Part shown: positions 5,337 to 52,200 of the stretch, one piece after another | Layout: every line of letters starts with the position of its first letter | Numbering within the stretch: position 1 is the stretch's first letter | NCBI GenBank assembly: GCA_033675265.1 | Contig: JAUJYZ010000932.1 | Coordinates: 1-64,000 of the forward strand | Length of the DNA: 64,000 nt | DNA from: Actinostola sp. cb2023 | Taxonomy: Eukaryota > Cnidaria > Anthozoa > Actiniaria > Actinostolidae | Reading direction: 5' to 3' | Notes under the pieces: generated by a model | The model's input: the letters and a program-made list of their open reading frames with translations, nothing else | Database searches by the model: none | Told to the model about the DNA's origin: nothing | Translations under genes and position numbers: made by a program

Positions 5337-5500
5337 AATTCTATCGTAATCACTATCAGCCTGAAAATGTGTTATTTTTTCTATAACAATGAAGTTAAAG
5401 TCATTGAGATTATGCGGGCTATCATTAAAATGGATGGCTACTTCGCAATTTGTTTTCTTAGTAACAATAGAAGATTTGTGATTGCGAAAACGGACCTTAA
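5337..5500 (-). pseudogene. inverted copy of the GIY-YIG coding region
   Basis: Read as reverse complement this segment matches 6365-6545, including the codons for VTKKTNCEVAIHF. At about 5500 the sequence switches to plus-strand reverse transcriptase coding sequence. This inverted 5' part followed by a forward body is a known organisation of Penelope-like elements. Confidence 0.7.
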
Positions 5501-5970
5501 ATCTGTGGTGGAGATACAGGGACGATGTAGTTGATGTTTGGACCTTGGGTTTACCTAAATTACTGGAATTTACTGACTACATCAATTCTCTGTATCCCAC
5601 TATCAAGTTTGAGGTTGTTTACTCTCAACATAGTTTGAATGTTTTGGATCTCACTCTGCATATTCATAATGGGTTTATTTCAACCGATGTTTATTCTAAG
5701 CCAACCGATAGTCATTTGTACTTACCTTTCAATAGCTCACATCCATCACACTGTAAGAATTCGATCCCTTACGGGGTAGCTCTTAGGTTAAAAAGAAATT
5801 GCTCTTCTAATGAGACTCTGGAGAATAGATGCCGTGAATACAAATTTTATCTCCGATACCAGAACTATGATCCAGCCCTCGTGGAAAAGCAATTTCATAA
5901 AGCACTGTCGGTTGATAGAGAGTCAATTCTTAAACCCAAGAACAAAAGTAAAAAGAAGGTCTTCCTTTAG
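5500..5970 (+). pseudogene. Penelope-like element reverse transcriptase (C-terminal part)
   Basis: The frame begins with WWRYRDDVVDVW, the catalytic YxDD block (motif C) of Penelope-like reverse transcriptases. It continues with LDLTLHIHNGFISTDVY, KPTDSHLYLPFNSSHP and GVALRLKRNCS, all typical of the thumb and connector in this family. Motifs upstream of YRDD are absent, because the element starts within the domain at the junction with the inverted copy. The frame ends at 5968 and coding continues in another frame at about 5960-6080, so a frameshift separates this part from the GIY-YIG domain. The copy is dead. Relatives copy RNA into DNA at chromosome ends or broken DNA. Confidence 0.8.
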
Positions 5971-6080
5971 TTTTAGACTACAACCCCAGACTCCCAGATA
6001 TTTCTAAGATCATTAAGACTCATTCCAGCATTATTTCCAATTCTACTGTTCTTAATACTATTTTTCCACCTAAGTCTATT

Positions 6081-6632
6081 ATGACAGCTTTTAGAAGAAC
6101 TAAGAACCTTAAGGAATTACTGGCACCTTCTAGATCCACAAAAGATCTTTCTAATAATGTAAATTCCAGTCACGGGTGCTTCAAGTGTGGCAAGAGGTGC
6201 GACCTATGCAAAAACTTCTTGGTTCAGTCTGATTGTTTTAGGAGTTTTTCCACTGGTCGTACCTACAAGATTAGGCAATCTGTTTGCTGTACTTCTAGCA
6301 ACGTTATCTATCTTATTTCATGTACTAAATGCAACCTTCAATATGTCGGTTCCACTTCTAATCAATTTAAGGTCCGTTTTCGCAATCACAAATCTTCTAT
6401 TGTTACTAAGAAAACAAATTGCGAAGTAGCCATCCATTTTAATGATAGCCCGCATAATCTCAATGACTTTAATTTCATTGTTATAGAAAAAAATTACACA
6501 TTTTCAGGCTGATAGTGATTACGATAGAATTCTGCTAACCAGGGAAGCTTACTGGGCCACGCAGCTTCGTACTTTACGCCCAGAAGGCCTCAACAAAAGG
6601 CAGGAATTTAAGTCTAAGCGTAGAATTCATTC
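6081..6632 (+). pseudogene. Penelope-like element linker and GIY-YIG endonuclease
   Basis: MTAFRRTKNLKELLAPSRS is the usual linker of Penelope-like proteins. It is followed by a cysteine-rich patch (CFKCGKRCDLCKNF) and the nuclease: NVIYLISCTKCNLQYVGST (GIY-YIG equivalent), VRFRNHKS and CEVAIHFND. A frame change near 6505 separates the last piece (REAYWATQLRTLRPEGLNKR, 6545-6605). It belongs with the RT piece just upstream. Because of two frame breaks I treat it as inactive. Confidence 0.8.
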
Positions 6633-17329: not shown

Positions 17330-18677
17330 GCCCGCATCTGGAAACAACCACAACAATGCAGAGAATGTGGTTATGTCAATGATAAGGACTTTCGGTTTTG
17401 CCAGATATGCGGGTGCCAACCCAACCCACCAGTATACTGCGGCTCTACCACTCAACAGCTTGTTATCGACATAGAGGCCATTGACGCTCGCGTTACAGCG
17501 CTCGAGTCGGAAAGAACCGCTAAGCCGTACGAGCAACAGAAATCCAGACTTGAACGGGAATTAGACCACTTTTTAGCCTCCTTGCCCCATCCACACTCTT
17601 TGCCCTCGGCAAACCCATCCGACATCATCCGGTTTTTTGGTATGGAAGGATAGACATGGTAGAACGAAACTTCACCGCCCCGAATGTACCCATTTGAAGT
17701 CCCAATCAAGGGGGATTTGCGCATGCTTGTGTCCGCGCCGACTTGCTGCAGGGACGGTTGACAATCTAATCGGGAAACTGCGAGCGATTTTCAATGCTAG
17801 TGGTCGATCTCAGGACTGGGGCGATGCCTTTGCGAGGGGAAATCCAGTGTCTCATGTCTCCGTCAAGCGATACTTGTCATCCATCCAGGAGGAGCAAGCA
17901 AGATTGCCCGTCACACCCCAGCAAGCGACACCGATTTTCTTTGATAAGTACACCAAGCTCTGCTATTTCCTGAGAACCCAAGCCCTCGCACCGTCAACCC
18001 CTCCTCTCCAGAGGTACCACTGCGCAAGAGACCTAGCTTTCTTCTCGACCGACTTCTTCTCTGGTGACAGAGCATCAGATTTGGGTCGCACCCTAACCAA
18101 AGAGGTGTTATCCCTCCCTGATGACTCCGGTTTTATTTTTCACCACACTTTCGGGAAAACACTCCGGGGCAAGCGGGCTAAAGATTCCAACATCTTCGCC
18201 ATCAAGCAGTGCTCTGACAACACCGTCTGTCCAGTGAGTAAGCTTTATATACAGCTGTCCGACCTGATAAAGATTGACCTGCGTGACGGTTACCTCTTTC
18301 GTGTCAGCGATCGCAAGGGAAACATCTCCAACAGCCCTTTCATCGGCTCCACCATCGCAAACCGTCTGCATGCCCACCTGACGCCGTTAAACATGGATGA
18401 CGGTGAAACTATGCACAGTTTCAGGAGTGGGTGTTCGATCACCCTCTCCCTGTTAGGCGCCTCCGATCAGCAGGTAGCGAATCACGTGGGCTGGAGGAGC
18501 CTTGAGACGGCCAGATACTATATGCAGGCGGACAAGGTCATGCAGCTAAGTCAACCAGCCAGTCTCCTGGCAGAAGGCACCACGAGTGGACCCGACGGGC
18601 GCAATTCGGCTGCCAATTTGGGATGGCAGTTTAGGGACAAAAATAACCTAAGGACTTTAAGAGCAAGTATTTACTAG
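17330..18677 (+). pseudogene. ALOG-type tyrosine recombinase (DIRS/Crypton-like)
   Basis: A zinc ribbon (CRECGYVNDKDFRFCQICGC) and a helical segment (IDIEAIDARVTALESERT...SRLERELDHFL) are followed, after a one-base frame change near 17640, by WKDRHGRTKLHRPECTH, CACLCPRRLAAGTVDNLIGK and LRAIF, the signature of the ALOG DNA-binding domain described in DIRS-type integrases. The catalytic domain ends the protein: MHSFRSGCSITLSLLG holds the HxxR and HVGWRSLETARYYM the H/W and nucleophilic tyrosine. It should cut and rejoin DNA through a covalent tyrosine link. The frameshift and lack of other element genes suggest a dead copy. A fold-back element starts 7 bases after its stop. Confidence 0.75.
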
Positions 18678-20125: not shown

Positions 20126-21092
20126 TTTCCGCTTACGGGAGGTGTCCGCTTACGGGAGGTGTCCGCTTACGGGATGTGTCCGCTTACGGGATGTGTCCGC
20201 TTACGGGAGGTGTCCGCTTACGGGAGGTGTCCGCTTACGGGAGGTGTCCGCTTACGGGAGGTGTCCATTAACATTAATATTTTAATAATGGCCATTCTTA
20301 TATAGCGCATTTCACATTCGTCCCAATGCGCTTTTACGGGAGGTGTCCGCTTACGGGAGGTGCCTGCTTACGGGATGTGTCCGCTTACGGGATGTGTCCA
20401 CTTACGGGAGGTGCCTGCTTACGGGAGGTGTCCGCTTACGGGAGGTGCCTGCTTACGGGAGGTGTCCGCTTACGGGAGGTGCCTGCTTACGGGAGGTGTC
20501 CGCTTACGGGAGGTGTCCGCTTACGGGAGGTGTCCGCTTACGGGAGGTGTCCGCTTACGGGAGATGTCCGCTTACGGGAGGTGTCCGCTTACGGGAGGTG
20601 TCCGCTTACGGGAGATGTCCGCTTACGGGAGGTGCCTGCTTACGGGAGGTGTCCGCTTACGAGAGGTGCCTGCTTATGGGAGGTGCCTGCTTACGGGAGG
20701 TGTCCGCTTACGGGAGGTGCCTGCTTACGGGAGGTATCCGCTTACGGGAGGTGTCCGCTTACGGGAGGTGTCCATTAACATTAATATTTTAATAATGGCC
20801 ATTCTTATATAGCGCATTTCACATTTGTCCCTATGCGCTTTTACGGGATGTGGCCGCTTACGGTAGGTGTCCGCTTACGGGATGTGTCCGCTAACGGGAG
20901 GTGTCCGCTTACGGGAGGTATCCGCTAACGGGAGGTGTCCGCTTACGGGAGGTATCCGCTTACGGAAGGTGTCCGCTTACGGGAGGTGTCCGCTTACGGG
21001 AGGTGTCCGCTTACGGGAGGTGTCCGCTTACGAGAGGTGTCCGCTTACGGGAGGTGTCCGCTTACGGGAGGTGTCCGCTGACGGGAGGTTCA
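20126..21092. repeat. 17-bp minisatellite TCCGCTTACGGGAGGTG with higher-order structure
   Basis: About 50 copies of a 17-base unit in three blocks, with point variants (gggatg, ggtgcc, gagagg). Two copies of an unrelated spacer of about 80 bases (ccattaacattaatatttta onward, at 20262-20340 and 20769-20848) separate the blocks, so the array has a higher-order repeat. Because 17 is not a multiple of three, all three frames are open with the same 17-residue period; these frames are not genes. Confidence 0.9.
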
Positions 21093-27409: not shown

Positions 27410-30400
27410 ATGACCTGTCTTGATATTATCTCGGTTAATGTTCGTGGTGTTGCTACTCCTGTAAAGCGTGATTTGGTTGTATCCGTTGTGTCTAGATGGA
27501 GTGTGGTGTTTGTACAAGAGAGCTATGTGTGTAATCAGAGGAAGGCGGAGAGTTTTGAGAAGGCGTGGGGTGCGAAATGTTATTGGAGCTTTGGGGGCGT
27601 GAGGTCTGCAGGGGTGGGGATTTTGGTGAGAGAGGGGCTGGATTTAGAGGTACTTGATGTCGTAAGGGATACGAGTGGGAGAGTGCTAAGTTTGTTAGTT
27701 AAGTGGGGAGGGGTGAGATATTCTTTTGTTTGTGTTTATGCGACGGTGGATGTGCGTGAACGTAAATTATTTTTCCGTGATCTCCATCATTATGTTTTCC
27801 CGAATTCTTATGTGCTCCTGGGGGGTGATTTTAATTGTGTATTACAGGCGAGGGATACGTGTGCGGTGTCAGGGGCTAATAAGGGAGGTGCGGAGGAGTT
27901 GAGAGCGTTTGTTGGAGATTGGGATTTGTGTGATGTTTGGAGAGAGTTCAATAATGATGTGGGACAGTATACGTGGGTTGGGCAAGGGGTTGGCTCGAGG
28001 CTGGATCGCTTCTATGTGTCTCGTGGTTGTCTGACTTCTGTTGCTCGCTGTGTTATTGAGTGTCTTGGTGTATCGGATCATGATGGTGTGGCGTTGAGAC
28101 TAACTAGAGGTGTGGCTGCCAAGAGTAAGGGTTTATGGCGCTTTAATAATAGTTTATTGAGTGATAGTGTGTTCATTGAGCGGATGAGAGTGTGGCTAGC
28201 TAGTAAATTAAATAGTGCGAGTGGGGATATTGGGAGAGCTTCGTGGGTGGGCTTTAAGAAGGGAATAAAGCATTTTGTGATTCGTTATAGTGTGCAGAGG
28301 GCGAGAGCTGGGAGGAGCGAGCGGGATAGGTTAACTAAGGGAATAATACTTTTGAAGCGAAGGATGGCTGGAGGGGAGGATGTGAGTGAGAGAATTAGTG
28401 TCTTAGAGGGGGATTTGAGGGGATTGCTAGAGCGTGCGTGTGAGGGTGTGAAAGTAAGGAGCAGAGTGAAATGGATTGAGGAGGGAGAGAAACCAACTAG
28501 GTTCTTTTTTAATATAAGTAAGTGCCATGGGAAGGGTAATTATATTGATGTTTTGAAAGATGGGAGGGGTGTGGAGTGTTCTGATGAGGGTGGGAAAAAG
28601 AGAGTTATTGAGTCGTTTTATCGGGAGTTGTTTAAGCAAGAAGTTGTTGATGTGGATGTTCAGGGTGATTTGTTGGGCAAGGTGGATAGGGTTTTGCTGG
28701 AGGATGTCAGTGTTCGTTGTGAAGGCTATTTATCGGTTGAGGAAATTGAGGGTGCGATGAAGGGAATGGCTGGGGAAAAGACCCCGGGTGAGGATGGCTT
28801 GACATTAGAGTTTTATAAGTGTTTTGGTGATGTGTTGCTGCCTGTGTTGTGTCGGGTGGCAAATGGGAGTTATGATGGGGGGTATCTGCCGGGTGATTGT
28901 GTGCGTGGAGTGATTAGGTTAGTTTTTAAGAAGGGTGATCGCGCTGAGCTAAAGAATTGGCGGCCGATCTCCCTTCTTAACTTAGACTATAAGATCATTG
29001 CGAGGACTTTGGGAGGGAGACTGAGGAATGTGATGAGTGAAGTAGTGTGTGATGATCAGACGTGTGGAATACCGGGAAGGGCAATTAGCGAGAATTTAAA
29101 TTTGATGAGGGATGTACTGGATCATATTGATCAAACTGGGTAGGGTGGGGTGGTGGTGTCATTGGACCAGGAAAAAGCGTTCGATAGAGTAGATCGGGGT
29201 TTTTTGGATAGTGTGTTGGGTAGGTTTGGTTTTGGGGAGGGGTTCGAAAGTGGATTAGGGTGTTGTATGTTTGGTGCCTGTGCGAAAGTGATTTGTAATG
29301 GTGAATTGACGGGTAGTGTGGAGCTGGCTAAAGGAATTCGTCAGGGGTGTCCACTGTCGCCAATGCTCTATGTATTAGTGGCAGAGGTGCTTGCGTGCAA
29401 TATTAGGGCGGAGAGAGCGATTTGTGGATTCTTAGTCCCAGGGTCGAATGGTCGGCATACAAATATTTCTCAGTATGCTGACGATACGACGGCGGTTTTG
29501 CGGGATGTGGTGTCGATGAGGAAGTTGCTGGATGTAGTAGAGTGGTTCGGTAGGGGTACTGGTGCGAGATTGAATCGGGGGAAGTCGGAGGCGATGTGGA
29601 TTGGGGCCTGGAAGTGTAGGGTGGATAAGCCGTATGGCTTGAAATGGGTTACAAAAATGAAAGTCCTGGGTGTGTGGTTTGGGGATAACGTGCTGGATGA
29701 GAACTGGGTGGCGAAATGTGAGAGGTTGAAGGGGGTGTTAGATTTGTGGAAGGGGAGGGTTTTATCATTACGTGGTAGGGTATTAGTGGTTAAGGTGTCG
29801 GGCCTGGCTAAGCTCGATTATGTTGCTCGTGTCTTAGTCATGCCCGATCGGATTACCTCGCGGGTAAATAAGCTAATTTGGAAATTTGTGTGGGGAGGTA
29901 ACGTAGAATTGGTGAAGAGGGGCACGTGTTTGTTGCCGTGGACGGAGGGGGGATTGGGCATGGTGGACATTGGAGTACGTGTTCGTGCTCTGCGTATGTC
30001 GAATGTGGTGGCTAGTTTGAGTAAAGGGATGAGTAAAATGGCGTGCTATGTCAAGTATTTTGTAGGAGCTCGGTTTGCTACGTTGCGTCAGGATTGGAAA
30101 GTGTACCGTAATGTTAGTAAACCTAGCGCTGGTGAAATGACGCGCTATTATAGCAAGGTCTTTGCTGATGTGCGTGCGTGTGCAGGCGAGTGTTCGCCTG
30201 TGCTAAAGACGATGTACGCGTATCTGGTGAAACGCGAATTTGTTATACCTCGCTGTCAGCGCTTTTGGGAAATTGAGATGGGTTATGATGTAGAGTGGAG
30301 TGGGGTATGGAAGGGTTTGATAAAGTCGTTTGCCGAGAATCGAACTAGTGAGATACGATGGCGCATTGTGCATAGGATTGTGAAAGTGAGAGAGAATTTG

Positions 30401-30832
30401 TCTAGATGGGGGTACAATGTGTCAAGCAATAGGTGTGCAGTGTGTGGCGGAGTGGAATCGATTGAGCATTGTTTCTTGCTGTGTAAACGTGTAAGGAAGG
30501 CGTGGGGCTGGGTGGTGAGTCTTGTTCTCAAGTGGTCGTGTGACTTTGTTGTGAATCCAAAGTGTGTGTTTTTGGGTCTTTTTGGAAAGGGGGTTAGTAA
30601 AAACCTCACTATGTTTGTGGTTGAGAGCATGTTGAGCACCATATGGTTCTTTCGTAATCGCGCAACGTTTCATAATGATATAAGGCCATATAAAGATATT
30701 GTGCGTGCGTGTCGATGTGATATTGTGTTCCGTTTAAAGGTTGAGAAGTGTCGCCTATCATCGACGGAGTTTAAAAAAGTATGGTGCGTTGGCAATGTGC
30801 TATGTGGTCATGATCTAGATATCCTATTGTGA
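27410..30832 (+). pseudogene. family C LINE ORF2, intact except for one TAG stop
   Basis: From ATG 27410 the frame runs 577 codons to a TAG at 29141-29143, then continues without shift to 30832, about 1,140 codons in all. Endonuclease motifs: SVNVRG, FVQESYVCNQ, LGGDFNCVLQ and GVSDHDGVAL. Reverse transcriptase motifs: GEKTPGEDGLTLEFYK, NWRPISLLNLDYKI, VVSLDQEKAFDRVD, GIRQGCPLSPMLYVLVAE and QYADDTTAV. The C-terminal C-x-x-C...H...C knuckle is CAVCGGVESIEHCFLLC. The stop lies between the PGRAISENL motif and the catalytic DQEKAFDRVD block. The sense strand is strikingly rich in G and T and poor in C, unlike family A. Confidence 0.9.
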
Positions 30833-34100: not shown

Positions 34101-35077
34101 ATTGTCTGAGAAAACCGGGCAGAGTTGAAAGATGGGGGTCGGCCGATTCCTTTCAAATTGCTATCATTTATTACCTATAGGAATAGATTAAGAATGGTCG
34201 TATTTAAAGTTTGGCCCAGGCTTTTGCTCGAAAGTTGACCACCCCCCTTGTTTTGCATCAAAATCGCCCTGAAAGACGCTAAAATTTCGGGTCACTTTGG
34301 CGCTCTGTAAAATTCATATTGCATGATTTTCTATGATACATTTAGTTTGGTTGTGATATTTAGCCTATGTAGAGCTGGGTTACATGCAATAATGGCAAAT
34401 TTTCGAAAAACATCTTATTTTCACTTCGAGTTAAAAGTCAGTTGTCGACGGCCTTCGGCGGTCGACTAAATTTAAGCCATTTTATGGAGGTCCGTTCTTA
34501 AAAGTGCGGCAGTTTATTTTCTTAATTTAGCCATTTTTAACAAGTTTATTCTTTCCTTTCTTGATTTCCAAAAACTCTTACTCGGATATTTTCAACGACT
34601 TCGCGTGAGCAGCCTCCGACTCTTCAAGGTAGTCGGCTCTTTTCCCGTCAAATTTTGTTTGTTTATCGGACTTGGTTCTTCGAATACTGTCTTTTTAACC
34701 GCAATTTGATCTAATTTGATCCGCTCATGGGTGCCCTCGGTAAGAGCGTTAGTCGGGTAAGTTAAGTCAAGTCCGTCGTCGCCTGCCCCCGTACCTGTCA
34801 AAATAATTCAATTATAGCAGCAGACGAGAGGACAATAGATAAGCCTCTGTTTGCCTACCCCCTCCTCTTCTAGTGATGCTAGGGCGAATTTGATTAACTT
34901 ATTAGCTAACACTGATAACTAACTATATGTTTGGCAGAGAGCGGACTGGAACATAAATTCAAATCGAAACGTTCGTTTGGCCAGGAATCAACTTACTGGC
35001 AACTAGTAGGGGACAACAGAGGCCAGAAAGGTCAATGATACGTCTGAATAAGAAACGACAACATATAGCGAACTGGA
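34101..35077. other. unassigned interval between LINE and RecQ/DUF6589 element
   Basis: No gene was recognised. The last 125 bases (from attcaaatcgaaacgttcgt, about 34958) recur in similar form at 43137, on the far side of the transposon, so the target was itself a short repeat. The rest has a low-complexity flavour without clear ends. Confidence 0.4.
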
Positions 35078-35087
35078 ACTGACATAT
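35078..35087. repeat. target-site duplication ACTGACATAT (left)
   Basis: Identical to 43124-43133 at the other end of the element. Confidence 0.85.
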
Positions 35088-35191
35088 CATCCTCGGGAAC
35101 CCAGGGGTATATTCTGTCGCTCGTTACTCGCTCCCAGAGAAATACCCCTGGGAACGAAGTCTGTTGGAACTTGTTCCGGAAGTCAAAATTA
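35088..35191 (+). repeat. left terminal inverted repeat (104 bp)
   Basis: Contains two internal palindromes: CCCAGGGGTAT with ATACCCCTGGG 33 bases apart, and GGAACTTGTTCC. Both are also present in the right end. Such subterminal dyads often bind the transposase; that role is inferred. Confidence 0.9.
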
Positions 35192-35299
35192 CTCTCGTTT
35201 CTGATTGGTCGACCATATATGGTCGACCAATCAGTATCAAGTATATTTAGACAAAGAATATAATGATGTAGATCGATCTGATCGATAAAAGATCGCATC

Positions 35300-37780
35300 A
35301 TGCCATCGGCAGATCGGCATGCAGTTCGGTTTCTCAACATGGCGGTCGCTGAGAAACAGTTTGACAATGTCTTCATCGATTTTCTTGCTGTTATTGAGTC
35401 TCGTTTCAAGATAAAGTCCCTGAAAGCTGAACAGCAAATGGTGTTGAAGTCATTTTTCTCTGGTCAGGATGTTTTTTTTGCTCAACTTCCAACAGGATTT
35501 GGAAAGAGTTTAATATACCAAGTAATTCCAGACCTGTGTGTCTATTTGAATCAACGAGGCTTGCCATTCAGTAAATCGCCGGTTGTGATCGTGTCCTGTC
35601 CACTTCAGTCGATCATCCGCGATCAGATTCTTTACCTGAAATCCCTTGGAATTGAAGCTGCTAATATTGGTGACCGAGCTTTTAATTCAGATCTTCTTTC
35701 CGGCAAAGTAAGAATCATATTTGGCAGCCCCGAGTCTCTTGGGAGCGAAGCATGTCGAAAGCTGTTGTCAACATCATTCTACAAGGAAAATATTGTCGCT
35801 TTGGTATGCGATGAAGTACATACCGTAACTCAATGGTAAGTTTGTTTATTTTGAATCCAAACACTTAATCCGTGCAATTAAGCTAGTAATAGTAAGTCTT
35901 ATGCCCCACACAAAACTTGTTTAGTTTAAGACATTAAGTAAGCTTAAGCTTACATTTATTCTAGCTTCTATATTAAATCGGAGAGCATTTTCTCGGGTCT
36001 TTCTGCACGTACCGCAAACCTATTGTTCTGTGTGTTTCTATTGAATTACGTACACTGTGACCGGTACCTGAACACTGAACTGGTAATGTCTTGGTTTAAG
36101 GTTTGGATGAAATTATACTTGGTTATTTGATAGTAGAGTGCAAACACTAAAATGGCGAAACAGTGCTATTAACTTACAAAGCGAGAATTTGTTGTGACAG
36201 AGACATTTGCATGTGAGCTCACTCAGTCGTAACTGCAAAGATGTTTTCATTTTGTACTCTTTCCAACAATTCTCGCTATCTGATTGACTAGTTAGTAAAA
36301 AATAAAAATGGGTCGCCATGTTGCGTCGTGCTGTAATTAGCACTAAATAGTGCAATGTCTATTGTTCTATTGGTGCTATTTAGAACTCCATAACCTCAAA
36401 GTACAAATTTGTACACAACCATGTATGCTCATAGAGTCTCTAATGGTTAATTGTTCTACTTGTACTTGTAGAATACTGGTTCAAGTCCAGTAAGAGGCAG
36501 AGCCAATGCATATAATTGAAATCTAAACTAGGTTCAATACATACAGTATGAATGACCATCACCTTTCTTTCTTTTAGGGGTCTGGCAGATAAAACAAAGG
36601 GTGATCCTTTCAGGGTGTGGTGTTCAAAAATTGGTGAGTTACGCTCATTTCTCTCTGAAGGAATCCCAATGATTGCACTCACAGCAAGTTCTAAAATGTC
36701 AACAAGGCGCAAAATCATTGATATTCTCGCAATGAAGAACTGCTTGGAGATCATTGCAAATCCTGACCGGCGAAATATAAAACTCCATGTTAAGAAGATC
36801 AAGGATGACATCCCCAGCAATTTCTCATGGCTAGCAGAGTTATTAAAGGAAAAAAGAGCAGATGCAAACAGAGTGCTGATATATTGCCAGTCGATCAAGC
36901 AATGTATCAGTTTTTATAATTTTTTCAAAATGGAACTAGGGCAATCATTATTTTGTCCTGACAAGCCAAAACTGGTCCGTAACAGACTGATTGCCATGTA
37001 TCATTCATCAACAGATGAGGATATTAAAAACATTGTTGGAAATTCTCTAAGAGATCCCAATGGGTGTATAAGGGTAGTGATTGCAACATCTGCACTGGGG
37101 ATGGGTGTGGACATTAAAGGCCTTCATAATGTTATTAATTATGGGCCACCTGATTGTATTGAGTCATATTATCAAGCATTTGGGCGTGCCGGTAGAGATG
37201 GAGAACAATCTCATGCAGTTCTAGTCTACCATGGCAGACAACTCCGGAAATGTGATTCTGATATGATTAGATATTTGAAGCATGATGAATGTCGCAGGAA
37301 ACTATTACTAGAAGTTTTTGACACAAGCAGCAGCATTAACAGTTTGCCAGTCACACCCAAGCATCTTTGTTGTGACAACTGTGTTTGTACCTGTGAAGAA
37401 CCAAGATGCAAAGATTTTGGGACAGCCCTGTAGTGGAAGCAAAGGAAAAGGAAATTGAGTTAGTGAGGCAAGAAAGAACAGTTACAGAGGAGCAGAGAAC
37501 AGTGCTTTCCAAACTACTACTTAAAAAAAGGGAAGATCTTTTTAAGGATTACCAAGATGTGTCATTTTGTTCATCTTTGGATTTGGTTACAGCATTTTCT
37601 TTAAATCTGCTTGATGAGGTTACAAGTAAATGTTCATGTATGTTTTCTGTGAATGACATTTTGAACCACACAAGTGTTTACAGCAACGAACACGCCCAAT
37701 TTATTTTCCAGTGTTTATCTGAGGTTTTCACAGACATGGATATAGACGATGAGGTATTTGCTAACATTGAAATGTAAATC
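35300..37780 (+). CDS. RecQ-like DNA helicase of the transposon
   Basis: Exon 1 (35300-35836; a second possible start MAVAEKQF is at 35339) has the helicase motifs AEQQMVLKSF, Walker A PTGFGKS, IVSCPLQSI and DEVH (motif II) and ends TQW|gtaagt. Exon 2 starts near 36579 (GLADKTKGDPFRVWC) with ALTASS (motif III), LIYCQSIKQC (IV), ATSALGMGVD (V) and QAFGRAGRDG (VI), then a zinc-binding region with HDECRRKLLLE and CCDNCVCTC. The frame ends at 37431, and a C-terminal extension of about 110 residues (EAKEKEIELVRQERTVTEEQ onward) continues in another frame to 37777, implying one lost base or an assembly error. HRDC is absent. It unwinds DNA 3'-5' by family analogy and may aid transposition. Confidence 0.8.
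35837..36578 (+). other. intron of the RecQ-like gene
   Basis: Donor gtaagt directly follows the W codon after DEVHTVTQ. The acceptor is ctttcttttag before GGTCTGGCAGAT. No other gene was seen inside. Confidence 0.75.
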
Positions 37781-38208
37781 TTGTATAACAATGTAATATG
37801 GTCAACTTTGTCTAGATGGACACCTTTCTAAGATGGACAATATTGTCTGGTTACTGCTGTACTGTTTTACTACACATGTAAATCAAATCTTGGAAGGCAG
37901 ACACCTTGCTACTAAACCAGACAGCAGAAGTTTGTCCTAAAGGTGTCCAGCTCAGAGAGAGTTAACTGTACATTGCAAGTCCTAACAAACCTATAGAAGT
38001 GGAAACTAGTGAGTACACTAGTATGGACTGCATCGGTGTATAATGATAATTTCAATGGTTAAAGGAAATCTGTAACACTGTAAAAAAGAGTATTTAACTT
38101 TATACTTACGTTTCGAGTCTGGAAGACTAGAAGCCTACAATGTATAACACTATATAAATGTAAATAAACAAAAAATGATCTCACTTACGCTCACTAAGGT
38201 AGGCCTCA

Positions 38209-41200
38209 TTACTCCCAGAAGTTGAAAATATTTTTTTTGTGATAATTTATCCATTTGTGCAATTTCACAGGATCAATTTTGGTTAAGATATCTGCAGGAA
38301 AACCAGGGAAGCTGTTGTGTTCTCTGCCATTTTGAAGATTTTCAAGAGCGTTAACTCTTTTAAGTTCATCTAAGATCGTTTGAACATCAGTAGTTGTGTC
38401 ACCATGGACATGTCTCGATGATGACTTCTTCACATTTCCCTCTTTGTCAAAGTTGTCAATTACAGTTTGAACTGAGTTGGTTGATCGACTGTAGATCTGT
38501 GCACCTTCCATAGTAAAATTTGCACCTTGACTAATGAAAAGATTCTTGGTAGTCTTAATTGTATGTTCCATTGCAAGGTCACATGCAATATTCTTTCCAG
38601 CACCACCAACTGTATTGACAGAGCGGTTCCACTTAAGACGATGAGCTTCTTGAGGTGTTAAAATTGAATTCAGTTGTACTTGAAGAAATAATGACTCAAG
38701 GGCATACTTTGTCTTACCGCGAGCTCTGAAGTACAGCATGAGGTGCTTCCATAATCTTGTTACTCGTTCTCCATCGCCCTCTTTTACAGCATCTTGGAAA
38801 TTGCGATGCAAGAGGCCTAAAAGTAGGACAGTTTTTGAATAGTTAAACATGTGATCTTCAGTTGACACCTTCTTTTCCTTTAGCTTGTCATGGTCAGAAA
38901 TAATAAGTTGATGTTCTTTAGCTTCATGGTTTTCACGATTTTTCTTTCTCTTGAAATTTCTTTGGCAGTTAGGATATCTACATGCATAACTTTGAATACT
39001 TTCATCAGCCTGTTGAACTTGTTTTCTAAGGTGAGACACTGTATTCTCTGGAAATACAAACTCATCTAGTATGCACCCAGCTTCCTTATACAGGTGAATG
39101 GTACTTGCAATGCTGTGTGATTCGTCTGTAACCATGTTTCTAGATGGCTGGCTATCCATGGAATCCATACCAAAGTGATTTGTGATGGCTAAAAGTATGT
39201 AACCATCTAGAACATCGCTGAAAAATGCTTCACAACCATGATAACAACTTGTCACACTCTCCTTGACATCTTTTCTATTGAGCCTTGTCTTGAGTTGGTA
39301 TAAGCTGCCATGATCACCAACGGATTGTTGATCATACAATAAGTCAAAAATTAACTGTGTAAGAGAAAAAAAGAAGATAAAATAGATAAAATACTGTTAC
39401 AGTTTGAATGAATAGAGTGCAAAACAATATAACTGGCACTGATGAAAGAATAGAAAACAGATAAACCTATTTTATGGTTACCTATGTTGATTTCACTCTA
39501 TCAATACATGTAGTATTACTCGCTATATGTACCTGTAATACATTCATTTCACAATGAAAATCTTCCACCTTTGGAATTATGCCTTTCAGCTGTTTAAATG
39601 GTGTCTCTGCATCCATTACCGCACCCATGGCCCCTATCGACCTCTCCACTGTCAGCTGGTCTCCTCCGAATAGTAATCTTTCTTTAATTTCCTCTTCATG
39701 TCCATTCTCCTCTTTAATAGTGGGGATGTATTTCCTGTTAATGAGTCTTAGAATTTCTACCATTTCGTGGGTAATGTTTTCGTTCTTGTCAATAAAACCC
39801 AATTGAATCTGTTTGAAATTTAAAAAAATTGTTAATATAAAACAGTGCTTATATAGACCAAGTACTATCTTGTTACATTGAACTGATGATTTTAAAGCAG
39901 CTTTGTGACATATATATTATATTACTTAATATTTTTTTGCATTAAAAATAAATAAATAAATTTATTAAAATAATGCATATACTACATATACAATGTGAGG
40001 TCAAATGACAGTTTTATAAATTATTACATTTAGTTTATACAAAACAATAATTACCACTTCATTTTTTTGCTTCATCTGTTCTGTGTATGGATGCTCAAGG
40101 TGATTTGGTACATGTTTTGAGTATCTTTTAAACCATTCACAGTACTTTACCATGACTCTTAAGATAAGAACTATGAACTCTTTTCTCAATGATTGATGTT
40201 CTTCCATGGATGGCAGGAATGTGATATTTGGCAGATCTAAGACAGACTGTATTGGTTTATCATTGTTTAGCTCATCACCTCTTACTCTCTCTTCTATACC
40301 AATCATACAGAAACCATGGATTGACTTTGTATCCTTCACAGATGAGTACTGGGATGGTCTTTGCTCAAAGTCACAGTTGTCTCCTGTGATGTCATATCTT
40401 TTAAGATTAGTATGGGAGACATCTGCTATGGGAGATATCTGAACTGAATGTAAGGGTGAGGATAACAAAGTATCATCATCCCCATCACCATCAAAGCCAT
40501 TTCTTGTTTCATCACCTATAAAATTAAAATAAATAAAATTAATACATGTTGTTTATGTTCTGTGGGTGGTTGTTGCAAAAATATCCATATAATGAGTGCA
40601 TTATGGGTAATACTTATTTACAGTTTTTCCAAATAAAACTAAAGACTAAAACACATAACATGCTAAAGAGTTTCACAATGTTGCTCGCGTGGAACATCAT
40701 TTAGGGGACATTTTCAATTACCCATAATGCACCCGATATATTGATATATTAATATTATTATATTGATTTACAAAATTTTTGCAAAGGGCTGTATATATAT
40801 TATATTATTTAGTCTTTCAAAATTACTTGTATATTTCGAAAATTTAATAGTGATAACATATTATAATAACAATTATTATCATTAGTTGCAGTAGTAGTAC
40901 TAAGTATTTAATAGTAATAACATTACATGCTTATATATTTGTTAAATACATGTACATACATTTACTTGTGAAATAAAGTTATGGTGATTATTATTTGTTT
41001 TCCAGTATTTTGAACATTTAGCCTAAATTAACTCAGTTTAAAAAATAAAATATTTCTTTCTTCACATGTGAGATCTGAAATTTGGAATTAAGTAAGTAAG
41101 TAAGTAAGTAATCAGGGACAATACAGGGTCTATAGTTTGACACTGCTAGTAATGTTACATACCACTAGTTGTTGTGATGACCATGTTTGACGATTCATGG

Positions 41201-42830
41201 TACTTTTGAACATTCTCTTTCCACTTCATTATGGGAGAGTCATGTCGTTCAGCCATCTGTTTCAACTTTGTATTTACAGTCTTCTTTGATGTGCAAATCC
41301 CCAATTTGGACAGTCTCACAAATCCCTTAAAACAATTCAAGACATTAGACTAACATGCTAGTTTTATATGTCAATTCTAGTTATATAATAACCAAACCTT
41401 TCCCTATTTTTTCTTTTTCTTTCTTTCATTTCTTCTCTTTCTTTATCTTTCAGTTATTTATCCATCAATTCAGTAAGTGATTCTAATCTATCCATTCTTT
41501 TAATCTTTCCTATTTTTTCATTCATTAATAATTATTGCTTTCCTCCTTTCTTTTTTACACTTTCTTTTTTTTGCTTTGTTCATTTCTTATTTAAATTAGT
41601 AAACTCGCATTTTTGACCAAGTGTACCTTTTTATTGGTTCGACTAGCGTGAAGAAGAATACCAACTGTGTGTTGTACGGCATTCATTCTGTTGTTCCGGC
41701 ACTTCATGATAATTGAGCCAGCCATCAAAACATGAGGTTTCCACTCTTTCTTTCGCGAGTAAGATGATGGAACTGCAGCACTTTTCAGAAGATTGAAAAA
41801 AAGTGGACAATGCATCCGCCATTCCTTCAGTATCTTGGTGATCGAAAAGGATTTCAATTGCTTAGGTTGTACAGCCTTCATTAGCGTTGTTTTCGTCTTG
41901 CAGAGCTTGTCAATTTCACGTGATATTTTGAAACAGACCTGTCTGGTGATGGATTTCGCAAGCTTCTCGTTTGACATAGCTGCACTGGCAATAGATTTGT
42001 AGTTGACTTTCCGCATTAAACTTAGTCCAAGCTTCCTTAAAGTATTCGGAAGCTTTCTTCGCTGAACCTTTGATTTCCAGACTGATGTTAACTGTGAGTG
42101 GGAATATAAGTAATTATAAATTTATATATTTTTAGCGCCGCGTATCCAAAATAAAGTCAATGAATTGTTTTTAAATTACTACGGCAACTGTACATACATA
42201 CCTCTATCCCCTCTTCTCTTTCATTTGTGTTTGCCACTGAATTTCCTCTCTCTGTTATTTTCGGTGTTTGTGTACTTTTATCGACGAAGATCGTTGAATC
42301 GCGCGGGCTTGTAGATGTATAAATGTGGGGTGGGCCGCATGCATTCATTTCCGAGACGTCCACTAGTGGTAATTGATTCGTTGCAAGAGCCCTGTTTTGT
42401 GGTGTTATATAAACGTCTGTGTGCAGTTCTGTGAAGTTAATAGACCTCTGCGCTTTGGGCTGAATCGAGCTTAATGACTTTTTACGCATTGACACAGATG
42501 AGTCTGGGTTAGGTGGTGTATTCCTTCCTCGCTTAAATCGGACAGTTTGAATATCTGCAGCAACGTTTCTAATACGACCTTTAAAAAACTCAGTCAGTTC
42601 CATGTTTTCTTTCTTTGAACGGGAGTATCTTTGCAATTTTGCTTTACAAGAAGAGCATAGATAATCGGTTGCATCCCCTTCCACAGAATATTCAAGAATT
42701 GCTTCTAAAATTTAAAAAAATTCTTGACTACCAAATAGACGATATCGGTCCTTGGCGTTTTCCAATGTCCTCCCACACGTTCGACATAAAATTTCACTCA
42801 AGTATTTTACAGGGGTTACTTTTTCAGCAT
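38209..42830 (-). CDS. DUF6589-domain protein of the transposon (candidate transposase), multi-exon
   Basis: About seven exons. Exon 1 (from ATG about 42832) has LCRTCGRTLENAKDRYRLFG and, across a T-run at about 42712 where the frame slips, YLCSSCKAKLQRY: a ZAD-like four-cysteine domain. Then come 42684-42205 (Ser/Thr-rich linker), about 42080-41628, 41335-41161 and 40515-40053. Exon 6 (39809-39532) has LLFGGDQLTVERS and IIPKVEDFHCEMNVLQ, and exon 7 (39353-38209) has VGDHGSLYQLKTRL, GCEAFFSDVLDGYI and CRYPNCQRNFKRKKNRENH (C2H2-like). GDQ and EDFH are the conserved acidic blocks of DUF6589. They would fit an RNase H-type DDE core, but that is my inference. The T-run shift would inactivate this copy unless it is a sequence error. 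Confidence 0.75.
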
Positions 42831-43019
42831 TCATGATTTCAGGAGTGAATATCTTCCCTATGAATTTCCCGCTATGAAAAAAAGGTAAGCGGGCCGGGCG
42901 TTACGAATTCACGAGTGCGACAAAGCGGAAGTGATACGAAACATTATCGATTAATCGTGGTCATTGCTCCTATTCTCTGATTGGCTGCTTTGTTGGACAG
43001 CCGCCATATTGAATAATTT

Positions 43020-43123
43020 TAATTTTGACTTCCGGAACAAGTTCCAACAGACTTCGTTCCCAGGGGTATTTCTCTGGGAGCGAGTAACGAGCGACAGAAT
43101 ATACCCCTGGGTTCCCGAGGATG
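43020..43123 (-). repeat. right terminal inverted repeat (104 bp)
   Basis: Reverse complement of 35088-35191, with no difference that I could see. Confidence 0.9.
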
Positions 43124-43133
43124 ACTGACATAT
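43124..43133. repeat. target-site duplication ACTGACATAT (right)
   Basis: Pairs with 35078-35087. Confidence 0.85.
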
Positions 43134-46276: not shown

Positions 46277-49200
46277 ATGGCGAACAGTGAGACAAAAGGT
46301 CAGTACAAATCCATTTGCATCGGCATTCATCTGTTAAATTATTTATTATTTACACTTTTAACATGTCAACTATGCTGTAATGCTTGAAGATCCGTTTTGA
46401 GAAGTTTTATTTTCGTTTATAACGCCGTGATTCCTCTGTCTTTCATAAGATGTTCTCGTGTTCGACCTGACGTTCGACAGGTAAACAATCAGGCTTGTGA
46501 AGTGTAAAGCTGTACTGAGCCCGTGTTCTTTTCTTATTCATTCCAACTGTACCGAATGCAATTAACTTATTCTCTTAAAGTGCCTATGACATGAAATCAA
46601 TTTATGCAGTTTTGTGAAGCTTGATATATATACTAAAAGATCTGACAGGTTGAATTTCGAAAATTGTTATTGGCGAATTGTTATTAGCTTTGAAATACGC
46701 GCCTCTGAGGCTTAAAATTGTCCATATTCGCGCGCGGCCAAAATATCACGTGACTTCGATCTATGACGTCAAGTTGTGTTGTTGATGTTGTTGGCCGTAA
46801 GACAATATGGCGGACCGAAAAGAAAAACGTCGAAAAGGAGGACGATTCTGCGTAGCTGGTGCACCAAACAACATGAGCTGTCGAAACAATTCATATACTG
46901 AAGGAATGACTGTGCATCAGTTTCCTAAGGACCCCAATGTTCGTAAAAAGTGGGTGAAATTTGTGCAACGGCATAGAGTCGACTTTGCCGAACCCGTAAA
47001 CAAATACGCTGTCTTGTGCTCAGCTCACTTTGAACAAACTTGCTATGAAAGAAGGTATTCCAACGATGAAGGTCTCAAGATGAATCGAGTGCTAATAAGA
47101 GGTTCCATTCCCACTCGTGATACAGTAATACCAACTGGGATGGAGACGATTTCGAAGCGTTCAAAACGACGCGTAAGTGAAAATTTCTCGCTCTTATTCT
47201 TATGTCAAAGAATATAAACACAAGTTTAATTTGTCTTCCTCTTCTTCTTTTATTTCACAGCTTAAACGAGAAGCTCTAATTGCTACTTTTCAACATGACA
47301 ATGGCAAAAGGGCAAGACAAGAAGATCCAACATCAAACGAACCAACGAGTCACGATGAAGGGCCATCTCACGCTGTTCATGATCAACCAAGACCAAGTAC
47401 ACCGCTTTTGAGTCGTACAGCAAGCACAAAGCCACCGAGCAGTATGAGTGTTGATAATAAAAAAATTGCTTCCCTCAAGAAAAGTAATCGCCGTCTACGA
47501 AGAAAAGTAGTTGAACTAAAACAAATAAACAAAGAACTAAAATGTGTACGTACTAAGTTTAATTTAGAAAGTTAATTGTAACAATTTCCCAGTGCATATG
47601 AAAATATGATGCAAACTGATAAATTAATACACTGATGTGTCTTGGTTTCTTTAACAGAGAGTAGTTGAGACAGAGGGTGATACTTGTACTGAGGAAGAAG
47701 ACCTCAAAGCCACTACAATCGAAGATAATCCTTCTCCATTATCCATCAATGAAGAGTCTGAACAGGAGGGGTCTGAGGAGGGGTCCGAATATGGGTTAGA
47801 AAGTGTTTATGCTTCAATGGAGGAAACAACAGAAGACAGCAATGTTGATGATGAAGAAGAAGATTATTCCTCTCAAAGAAACGTCAGGTGAGTGTTTATG
47901 GTAGCAAGTAATACCACTGCAATAATGTAGAATAAATAATACAGTTCACATCACATCAGTGCCTCATACATATGGCCCACATTTTGCAATCTTAGGGCAG
48001 AAATAATAATATAATATTATGGTAGTATTGTCTGATAATTCTGTATTTTTTTCAGATTTGATCCTGAAACTCCAGTTTATGATGAACCAAAATTCATTGT
48101 CTTCTATCAAATGTTGCTTAGCCTATTTTCAACATTCTGCTTTAACTGTAAAAAAGATAAGCCTACTGTTTCCATGGTATCCAATGGAACAATGGTGACT
48201 GTGAAACAAACCTGCTCCAATTGTTTAGATGGTTTTTCATGGAGGTCGCAGCCATTGGTGAATGGGCGATACCCTGCAGCCAATCTGCTTTTAAGCTTTG
48301 CTGTGCTGTCAGCTGGGGCCTCAATAAGTAAAATTTTGCTCGTGTTTCGGCATATGGCCCTTTCTGTGTACTCTGCAAGAAATTTCTTCAGACATCAGAG
48401 GCACTTTTTGTTTCCCATTGTTCTCAGTCACTGGGAGTCATTTCAGAATGATTCCTTTTGTAAGTTAAAACACATGAAAGATGTCATATGGGCAGGAGAT
48501 GGCAGATTTGACTCCATGGGCCATTCTGCAAAGTATGGGGTGTATACGATGTTCTGTTCCACCCTGATGAAAGTTTGTCACTTTGAAGTAGTACAGGTTA
48601 GCATGTAATGTGTGTAGAATCCCTGGGGTAGAATCCAACCCATAGAGTGATTTTACTTATCCCTGAAACACAAACTTATAGTTTGTAGCTTGTTGTCTGG
48701 ATATATTACAATTACAACATATATGTGTCTACCAGAGTACACACACTAAGCACATGCAACATAAATAGCACTAAATGTATATACATGTAGTACTAATATG
48801 TTTATTATTAAATAGTGAAAATGATATTGTTCATTTAGTGCCAAACATTGCACGGTTTTAGTGTTTATACTCTACTATTATGCTACTAACTATTTAATGG
48901 GTAAAGAAAAATCACTCTAAATCCATGAAACATTATATTTTTATATGAAAACATTGTTGCAAGTGCATGTACATGTATGTGAAAAATATATTTTTTACAA
49001 ATGTCCCAAAATAGTATGCGTCTTCTTATACAGATAGCAAATATATCTATGTGAATGGATTTATTTCTTGAATAAGTTATTTTCAGGAAAGTGGAGGGAA
49101 GTAGGGTGTAAATACCAATAGAAAGTACATGTACAGTAATTAAAATGCATGTGTATTTATCATATATCAATAAGCATCCACTTGACGTCCAAATGATGAG

Positions 49201-52200
49201 ATCTGATTGGTTGTTGGGCTTATTCATGAAAAAAAACATGAGTTTGAGATATTATATTCCAACAGGCTAATGAAACTGGTGGTAGTCCACAAACCGAGCT
49301 TGAGGGTTGCAAAAGAAGCTTCCAGTTTTTGGCAGATATTGGTCTGGGTGTATCCATCTTTGTCTCTGATCGCCATCGCAGCATTGCAAAATGGATAAGA
49401 GAATGTTGTCCTGGTACAAAACATTTCTATGATATCTGGCACATTGCTAGATCTATTACTAAGGTGTTGCTAAAGGCTTCAAAAGAAAAAGGGTGTGAGG
49501 CAATTTCTCCCTGGATCAAGCCCATCAGAAACCATTTATACTGGTGTGCTACTTCCACCAAATCTGGGTTTGGAGCCCTTATTTCTGCAAAGTGGTTGTC
49601 GTTTCTGCGACATATGGCTAACAAGCACAGTAACCATCCAGACCCCCACTACACTGAATGTAACCATGGAGACATCGAACCAAGGAAGTGGATAAAAATA
49701 GGCAAGTTATATTATTTTGATTTTAAGTAGAGTAACCATACTAAAACTATTAAAGAGCATGAAACAATACTTTTTTTCAATTTTACTTGCTTTCTTACAT
49801 CTACATGTAATCACCAAACTAAATAAAGCTATAATGTTCAATAAAGCAATATTTATTGTTGAATTCGGTTTTCGCATGATAGATACGGTACATGTATAGT
49901 AAATTAAACCTCACCCTGAATAATTATTGCTTATAATATGCATGACTCATGTCAACCACTGACTGATTGGCTCTGAACACTATCCAAAGATTAGGAACTT
50001 ACTAACACACTTGATGGCATTATATAGTGGCTACACCTCTTCGAGGTCAGTAGCCACACAAAGTATAAATCATGCTTACTTTTTGGCACTAGCAGTAATA
50101 TGCTGGTTTAAAAAATGTACCTCTGGTCTGTTTACAGGAACTGCAGCATATGACAAAATAACCAGTCTGTTGTCAAAGAAATCTCTGATTGGTGACATTC
50201 AAAAATTATCACCAGAGGCACAAACAAGCTGTTTAGAGGGCTTCCACTCTGCACTCAACCACTGGCACCCAAAGATGATACATTTTTCATGGATGGGTAC
50301 AGTCTGCAGGTAAGCATTAATTTTCATATACATACATATATGTGTTTGAAGTTCAATTCACACAAAGGGACATTTCACAGGGACCCATCTCCCATCATAT
50401 TAATTACCTTACTTGGTGGACATGGTAGAGAGTGGTCGCAGTCTAAAATATTGAGGTACATGAACATGTATAACAATGATCATACAATACAATACAGTAC
50501 ATCTGCTTCTTTATCTACAGACACATTCTAGCCAGTTTGCATTTCAATGAAAATTTACATAGGAGAGCACAAACTGCTGCTGATGGCACACAGTATTACA
50601 AAGTAGTGTATCCAAAGTATAAACTTGGTGAGGAAGTTGTTCGAACTTTAACTGTCCCTCCTACATATGGTGAGTACAAATCATGAAGTCCAGCAGTTCA
50701 TTATTCCTCATACTAAAGCTAAGACTGACCAAATGATTGAGGTCACACATGGTGACTGGGAAAGGGGCTTCTATTGATGACAGATGGTTTGCCAGCTTAC
50801 TTTAACCAACAGTAAAATGGAAGGTGGTATTCTGAATGATTATAAAACAAAACATTGGAATAACAACATTATTCAGAACCACCTTGGTGAGACTGCACAA
50901 TTCATCATATCATACTCCACCTCAACCAATAATAATGTATAACATCCATAACACATTAAAACCTCTAAACCAAATTCTATATAAATTGTAAATATAATGG
51001 TGTGTGAAATAAAGAAAAACTGAAAAACTGGAAAACTATATCTACTTGTAGGTTATGTAGATGCATTGAAGAAGTTACTTTTTAGTCTTGGCAAAGTCGA
51101 AAGAGAGAAAATATATAACAGATACTGTTCAATGGTACCTGGAACACTTACAGAACAATATGAAAACAGATTGTCAAAAGAAGAGGCTGTGAAGGCTCAC
51201 AAGAAAAAGTTCAGCATGATAAACACACAGTTATTCCCTGCTGGTAATGTCAATTATTATTATTAAATGGCATCTTCAACCTTTTGTAAATGTAAAATTT
51301 ATATACAAGCTCTGCCACAGTTGTGATTTCTATTGTGTTTTCCTCATGAATTATTTATGAATATGATTGATAATATAATATATAATTATATATTATATTT
51401 ATAATTACACTCAATTACAGAAATGTTGTAGTATATACAATTTATTGACGTTGATTGAAGGGAAAAAAATATATATATATACAAATATCTAATGAGATGC
51501 AAAATGTTAGACATGCTAAAACACAACTGTTTTAAAAGCACAAAATTGCGATACTGATCTGAAATTGATGTTTCAGATATATTAGAAGAAAATAAGTGAT
51601 GTTTCACACTTTGCATCTCATTAGATATCTTGTATCTCATAAGATATTTGTATAAATGTATACTACATGTACAACGTTTCTGCAAGCGAGTGTATATATT
51701 ATAGTTATATAAATTATTGGAATTAGGATTTAATGGTATGGGTATAATCATACTTTATTATAATCATTTATGGCATGAAAAATGGCTATCATAATAAATT
51801 ATGCTGGGCTTTGGCTCTTTGTATTTTCAAGATATAAAAGAAAAAAATATAAACAAGGACTATTTCATTTATCTAGAGCAATAATATCAATAGGTACATG
51901 TACACTTTTATTTTACAGCTGAAGAGCAGGAAGATCTGCAGCAAGCTATTATAGCACAGTCAATTATAACACAGTCAAGCACAACAAGAAAATCAAGAGT
52001 CTGCACCAAGTGTAAAAAACCTATGCGTGGTCATTCAAAGAGCAACTGCAGCATATCTACTTGATATTCTAAATTTTGATATGCCTTATTTCCTGTTTAA
52101 GCCGCCTTATCTATTTCAAGGCCTTATAATTTATTATATTAAATGAAGAAACAACTTACTGCTGATTAATATTGACAAACAAGACAAGTTATATACACTG

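Follow-up and report, generated by a model that had tools for sequence, protein, structure and literature searches.

DNA transposons that encode a helicase have been described before. AcademH is the Academ lineage with a helicase and target-site duplications (TSDs) of 9 or 10 bp, while AcademX is the Academ lineage with a nuclease and TSDs of 3 or 4 bp (PMC10045372). AcademH is attributed to Kojima 2020, as cited in PMC10045372 and PMC10799480. In KolobokH, a RecQ helicase is found beside a DDE transposase, and Kolobok elements make TTAA TSDs of 4 bp (PMC9587614). The present locus lies in a stretch of 64,000 nucleotides from the cnidarian Actinostola sp. cb2023 (contig JAUJYZ010000932.1, positions 1 to 64,000), referred to in full length as the window. 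It contains an 8-kb unit that we regard with high confidence as a DNA transposon of AcademH type, from a recently mobile family, with a DUF6589 protein as its DDE transposase and a helicase as partner. New here are the link to DUF6589, the measured scale of the helicase pairing and the recent copies.

The unit (35088-43123) is 8036 bp long and carries both genes inside, tail to tail. Its ends, 35088-35191 and 43020-43123, are complementary at 104/104 positions and are bordered by an exact 10-bp TSD (ACTGACATAT), which bears out an earlier sequence-only reading of the window, according to which 8.0 kb had moved as one piece. A search of the window for the 26 outermost bases of the end, allowing 3 mismatches, found just these two places, and 100 shuffles gave 0 matches. 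An 11-bp inverted repeat in each end can form a hairpin (z -2.4; as good in 4/200 shuffles). A diverged tandem repeat with a period of ~135 bp holds the insertion target in its second unit; its first unit (~34944-35077), by its sequence a paralogous unfilled site, thus shows the site without the insertion. A chance TSD provided by the surrounding tandem repeat was rejected: the 10-bp match is exact, and a TSD is present in 35/36 other units of the genome (33 distinct sites). The parts of the element are as follows.

35078-35087, no strand: target-site duplication, left copy, 10 bp; within the second unit of the diverged tandem repeat
35088-35191, plus strand: left terminal inverted repeat (TIR), 104 bp; internal 11-bp inverted repeat at 35100-35110 and 35142-35152
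35300-35835, plus strand: helicase exon 1; Walker A at 35492-35509, DEVH box at 35810-35821, GT donor at the end
36578-37433, plus strand: helicase exon 2; Helicase_C, QAFGRAGRDG at 37173-37202, RecQ zinc-binding cysteines; early frame end in the window copy
37434-37777, plus strand: helicase C-terminal tail; in another frame in the window copy (open reading frame, ORF, 37406-37777), continuous in the relative P0122
38209-39354, minus strand: transposase exon 6; C2H2-like insert from 38982, D at 38580-38578, putative third catalytic E at 38568-38566
39533-39808, minus strand: transposase exon 5; putative second catalytic D (GGDQ) at 39661-39659, ExxH motif at 39565-39554
40055-40515, minus strand: transposase exon 4; putative first catalytic D (GDN) at 40381-40379, weak PF20231 match (E 0.0077)
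41163-41325, minus strand: transposase exon 3; GT-AG borders, matched by the relative L072
41627-42091, minus strand: transposase exon 2; GT-AG borders, matched by the relative L072
42202-42834, minus strand: transposase exon 1; CxxC...CxxC motif (42786, 42657), in-frame TAA at 42714-42712, start uncertain
43020-43123, minus strand: right TIR, 104 bp, 0 mismatches to the left one
43124-43133, no strand: target-site duplication, right copy, exact

The minus-strand gene model has six exons with GT-AG borders throughout and comprises 1047 codons. Pfam profiles were run on 8 ORFs of the element, which cover five of the six transposase exons (exon 3 was outside the scan). PF20231 (DUF6589) matched exon 6 with 109.3 bits (E 2.4e-31) and exon 5 with 36.5 bits (E 3e-9), above the cut-off of 27, while the match on exon 4 remained under it. 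Neither another transposase family nor an XPG match was found in the 8 ORFs scanned, in agreement with the earlier claim that the genes are a RecQ helicase and a DUF6589 protein and that no known transposase is present. Since an in-frame TAA at codon 41 is common to the window copy, a second full copy and a third copy, the transposase N-terminus is uncertain: the start may lie elsewhere, an intron may have been missed, or all three copies may be defective.

A structure prediction had been proposed as a check on DUF6589. The model of a DUF6589 relative (pLDDT, the predicted local distance difference test, 92) is RNase H-like, and its closest fold among the matches listed is that of the Hermes transposase at 8-10% identity. 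Acidic residues are near-invariant in DUF6589 relatives, with a conserved D, D and E in this order; in the gene model, the putative catalytic residues are D466, D624 and E929. The GDQ and EDFH words already singled out in the protein are present, with the GDQ codons starting at 39661 and EDFH at 39565-39554. In a viral fold library the model had no match at E <0.001, and a sequence search of PDB returned one match, a photosystem subunit with E 0.77. Viral contigs gave 6 pattern matches, among which were 0 relatives. PF20231 had 0 matches in 14 control genomes, a weak control as those named are archaea.

The plus-strand gene has two exons and encodes a superfamily 2 (SF2) helicase of RecQ type, with profile matches to DEAD, Helicase_C and RecQ_Zn_bind. 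Nucleotide-binding, DEVH and QxxGRxGR-type motifs are present, which we take to have their usual roles. The frame of the window copy breaks at about 37420-37433, downstream of the codons for the helicase core and for the zinc-binding cysteines; in the relative P0122 (JGI origin; 97% identity over 61% of the query) it continues past this point. The second full copy has a broken helicase frame too, at a different place, and in a copy on contig C812 the frame is open over 407 aa. These breaks come from small indels that differ from copy to copy and may be assembly errors.

Recent movement of the family was apparent in the window's own genome assembly (424 Mb, 1594 contigs). Other units with the same ends and duplications had been suggested as a check. 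The end search gave 76 matches from 40 scored candidates out of 1045 in DNA, and 39 places were fetched; because the 40 are the best ranked, the TSD counts favour good copies. Both ends were present at 36/39 places. The TSD is 9 bp long in 29 of these units, 10 bp in 5 and 8 bp in one, and one unit lacks a TSD. At the three places dropped (L035, L046, L047), one end was absent from the short stretch fetched, and they are maybe longer copies or single ends. The 35 units with a TSD fall at 33 distinct sites, flanks being shared in the pairs L012/L025 and L029/L030. All but one of the 36 two-ended units are short (245-303 bp; L010-L045), and the one unit compared with the full element consists of its two ends. 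Among the 22 units of 291 bp, identity is 98-100% for all pairs (median 99.3%). The remaining unit is a second full copy of 8031 bp, which 2 substitutions and 12 indel runs separate from the window copy. From the near-identity of the 291-bp units and of the two full copies, the family has moved recently. The 22 nearly identical units represent a recent burst of nonautonomous copies.

Linkage of RecQ and DUF6589 had likewise been put forward as a check, and it holds across the window's own genome. The exon-6 protein has 109 matches there (two of them pieces of one element on C1548), which past the nearest five pieces are 28-45% identical, and the helicase protein has 136. A RecQ-like helicase match lies within 10 kb of 87/109 DUF6589 matches, against a chance expectation of ~0.7; 86 of the 87 linked pairs are convergent and the median distance is 1462 bp. 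The helicase was present at 20/20 DUF6589 loci fetched with flanks, a figure that leans high because these loci were chosen among the better matches, so that 87/109 is the fairer one. Among the 22 DUF6589 matches without a linked helicase, one was fetched, and its contig stops inside a helicase remnant. The two proteins also diverge in step. In a first Mantel test of protein distances, 19 elements (L050 and L051 left out) gave r 0.93, reached in 0/2000 permutations; with 17 non-redundant elements (L064 and L066 also left out), r was 0.90, reached in 0/5000 permutations, the largest being 0.61. No common contigs were noticed when the homologue lists were compared by eye, which carries little weight because the lists are partial.

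Long TIRs were found at 8/20 of the loci fetched with flanks: L050 is a near-identical copy of the window element, and at the remaining seven the sequences of the ends are quite unlike those of the window element. At seven of the eight, TSDs are 9 or 10 bp (by eye for L050, L067 and the 9-bp reading of L065), and L062 is without an exact TSD. At the other 12 loci, where the stretch fetched was at most 10 kb, no long TIR pair was seen, the flanks of L052 and L057 being too short for the test. Between diverged pairs, synonymous divergence (dS) is saturated save in four (one helicase pair, three transposase pairs), for which the ratio of non-synonymous to synonymous divergence (dN/dS) is 0.07-0.14. 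Near-identical copies yielded an estimate for three pairs, with values of 0.54-0.81 from very few changes. Both proteins are almost identical within the pair L062 (C504) and L066 (C608), and also within the pair L063 (C693) and L064 (C64), so that recent movement may extend to further DUF6589-RecQ lineages. The sequence-only reading had named DUF6589 as the transposase candidate. Considering the ends and TSDs across the genome, the helicase pairing, the co-divergence, the predicted RNase H-like fold and the near-invariant acidic residues, the DUF6589 protein is very likely the transposase.

Several points weigh against the assignment to AcademH or against a helicase at work in transposition. 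Academ kinship is proposed from described features, and Pfam still lists DUF6589 as unknown. The literature searched does not mention DUF6589 and has PF20231 just in an unrelated context. XPG linkage was not seen: 0/17 XPG_I matches in the genome lie within 10 kb of DUF6589, hence no independent sign of Academ kinship. A DUF6589-RecQ superfamily apart from Academ, having reached the same TSD length and a helicase independently, would account for this, but a helicase with 9-10-bp TSDs in animals is the description of AcademH (PMC10045372), and published tables list Academ elements for a bivalve and for corals, bivalves being among the DUF6589 hosts found. Such an independent origin is very improbable, and a new superfamily was not adopted since these two features are already in the published description. 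The sequence-only reading had seen a new kind of element with an unusual RecQ partner, and had stated that a described superfamily with this pair would speak against it. On its described features AcademH is such a superfamily (PMC10045372), and the partner loses its singularity with the helicase of AcademH and the RecQ helicase of KolobokH (PMC9587614).

The fold nearest to DUF6589, that of Hermes, belongs to a hAT transposase, and long inverted ends with 9-bp TSDs would also fit a Mutator-like element (MULE). A diverged member of either group that acquired a RecQ helicase is nevertheless scarcely credible. No MULE (PF10551) or hAT match was found in Pfam scans of the ORFs covering 5/6 exons (E <=1; exon 3 outside the scan) and of nine homologues (E <=0.01), and the helicase pairing is frequent and co-diverging. 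The TSDs of hAT elements are 8 bp long, against 9-10 bp here, where 8 bp was seen in just 1/36 units. A different doubt, compatible with AcademH identity, is that the helicase could be a passenger without a part in transposition. Its frame is broken in the window copy and, elsewhere in the gene, in the second full copy, and dN/dS is 0.54-0.81 between the near-identical copies, on very few changes. Against this stand the linkage at 87/109 matches, 86 of them in one orientation, the correlation of protein distances over 17 elements and the dN/dS of 0.07-0.14 in the four usable diverged pairs. The frame breaks differ between copies and may be assembly errors, and the C812 copy has an open frame. 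We thus judge a passenger helicase unlikely.

For the AcademH-type transposon that we favour, DDE transposition is the most probable mechanism. The RNase H-like core of DUF6589 would bind, pair and cut the 104-bp ends; these would be joined to target strands staggered by 9-10 bp, and gap repair would yield the duplication. The route is probably cut-and-paste and not replicative, and the transposase would also act in trans on the short internally deleted copies of ~290 bp, whose structure suggests that the ends alone may be enough for movement when the enzymes are supplied. Because it is kept with the transposase and diverges in step with it, the helicase likely takes part in transposition, as a co-factor and not as cargo; it would most likely unwind DNA at the ends or target, or during repair or replication of the unit. 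A more tentative and rather doubtful proposal is that of an obligate RecQ partner in a helicase-dependent route, e.g. by separating the strands of the target, or of the ends with their hairpins, across one helical turn. If true, it would explain why TSDs are 9-10 bp long here and 3-4 bp long in the sister lineage that carries a nuclease.

There is thus good support for DUF6589, a family that Pfam lists without a function, as the transposase of transposons that carry a helicase, and gene models labelled 'DUF6589', and some labelled 'RecQ-like', become recognisable as transposon genes in animal genomes. With a recurrent co-diverging pair, near-identical copies and short derivatives in one genome, the role of the helicase in transposition becomes testable.

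Other features of the window lie outside the unit, all on the plus strand. Two ORFs at 5482-6512 resemble a Penelope-like element; a GIY-YIG domain (E 9e-08) lies in the second of them. An ORF at 17637-18677 encodes an ALOG domain (PF04852, E 1e-18) and, after it, matches the tyrosine recombinase profile PF00589 just below the cut-off; it probably comes from a DIRS- or Crypton-like element. A short tandem repeat at 20326-20812 is open in three frames. Long interspersed nuclear element (LINE)-like ORFs with endonuclease and reverse transcriptase domains occupy 27410-30832, split at 29143/29150, and similar ORFs are found elsewhere in the window. At 46807-49730, a THAP-domain ORF precedes one that contains a DIWH word and matches MULE below the cut-off; together they may be a second DDE transposon.

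Compared with known systems, the element differs from Hermes (hAT) by the 8-10% identity of the transposase, by TSD length and by its helicase partner. Helitrons likewise encode a helicase, and differ by their HUH nuclease (PMC12730594). They are not known to have TIRs or TSDs of the kind found here. KolobokH shares the RecQ helicase and DDE transposase, but its TTAA TSDs of 4 bp contrast with the varied 9-10 bp sequences of the window element and genome units (PMC9587614). AcademX, of the same superfamily as AcademH, has a nuclease and TSDs of 3 or 4 bp, whereas a helicase and family TSDs of 9-10 bp are found here (PMC10045372). With AcademH no difference is established, and the likeness is drawn from its described features. 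It comprises TSDs of 9 or 10 bp (10 bp in the window, 9 or 10 bp in 34/36 genome units), an element-encoded helicase, here with DEAD, Helicase_C and RecQ_Zn_bind, a DDD/E transposase as predicted from fold and conservation, and animal hosts (PMC10045372).
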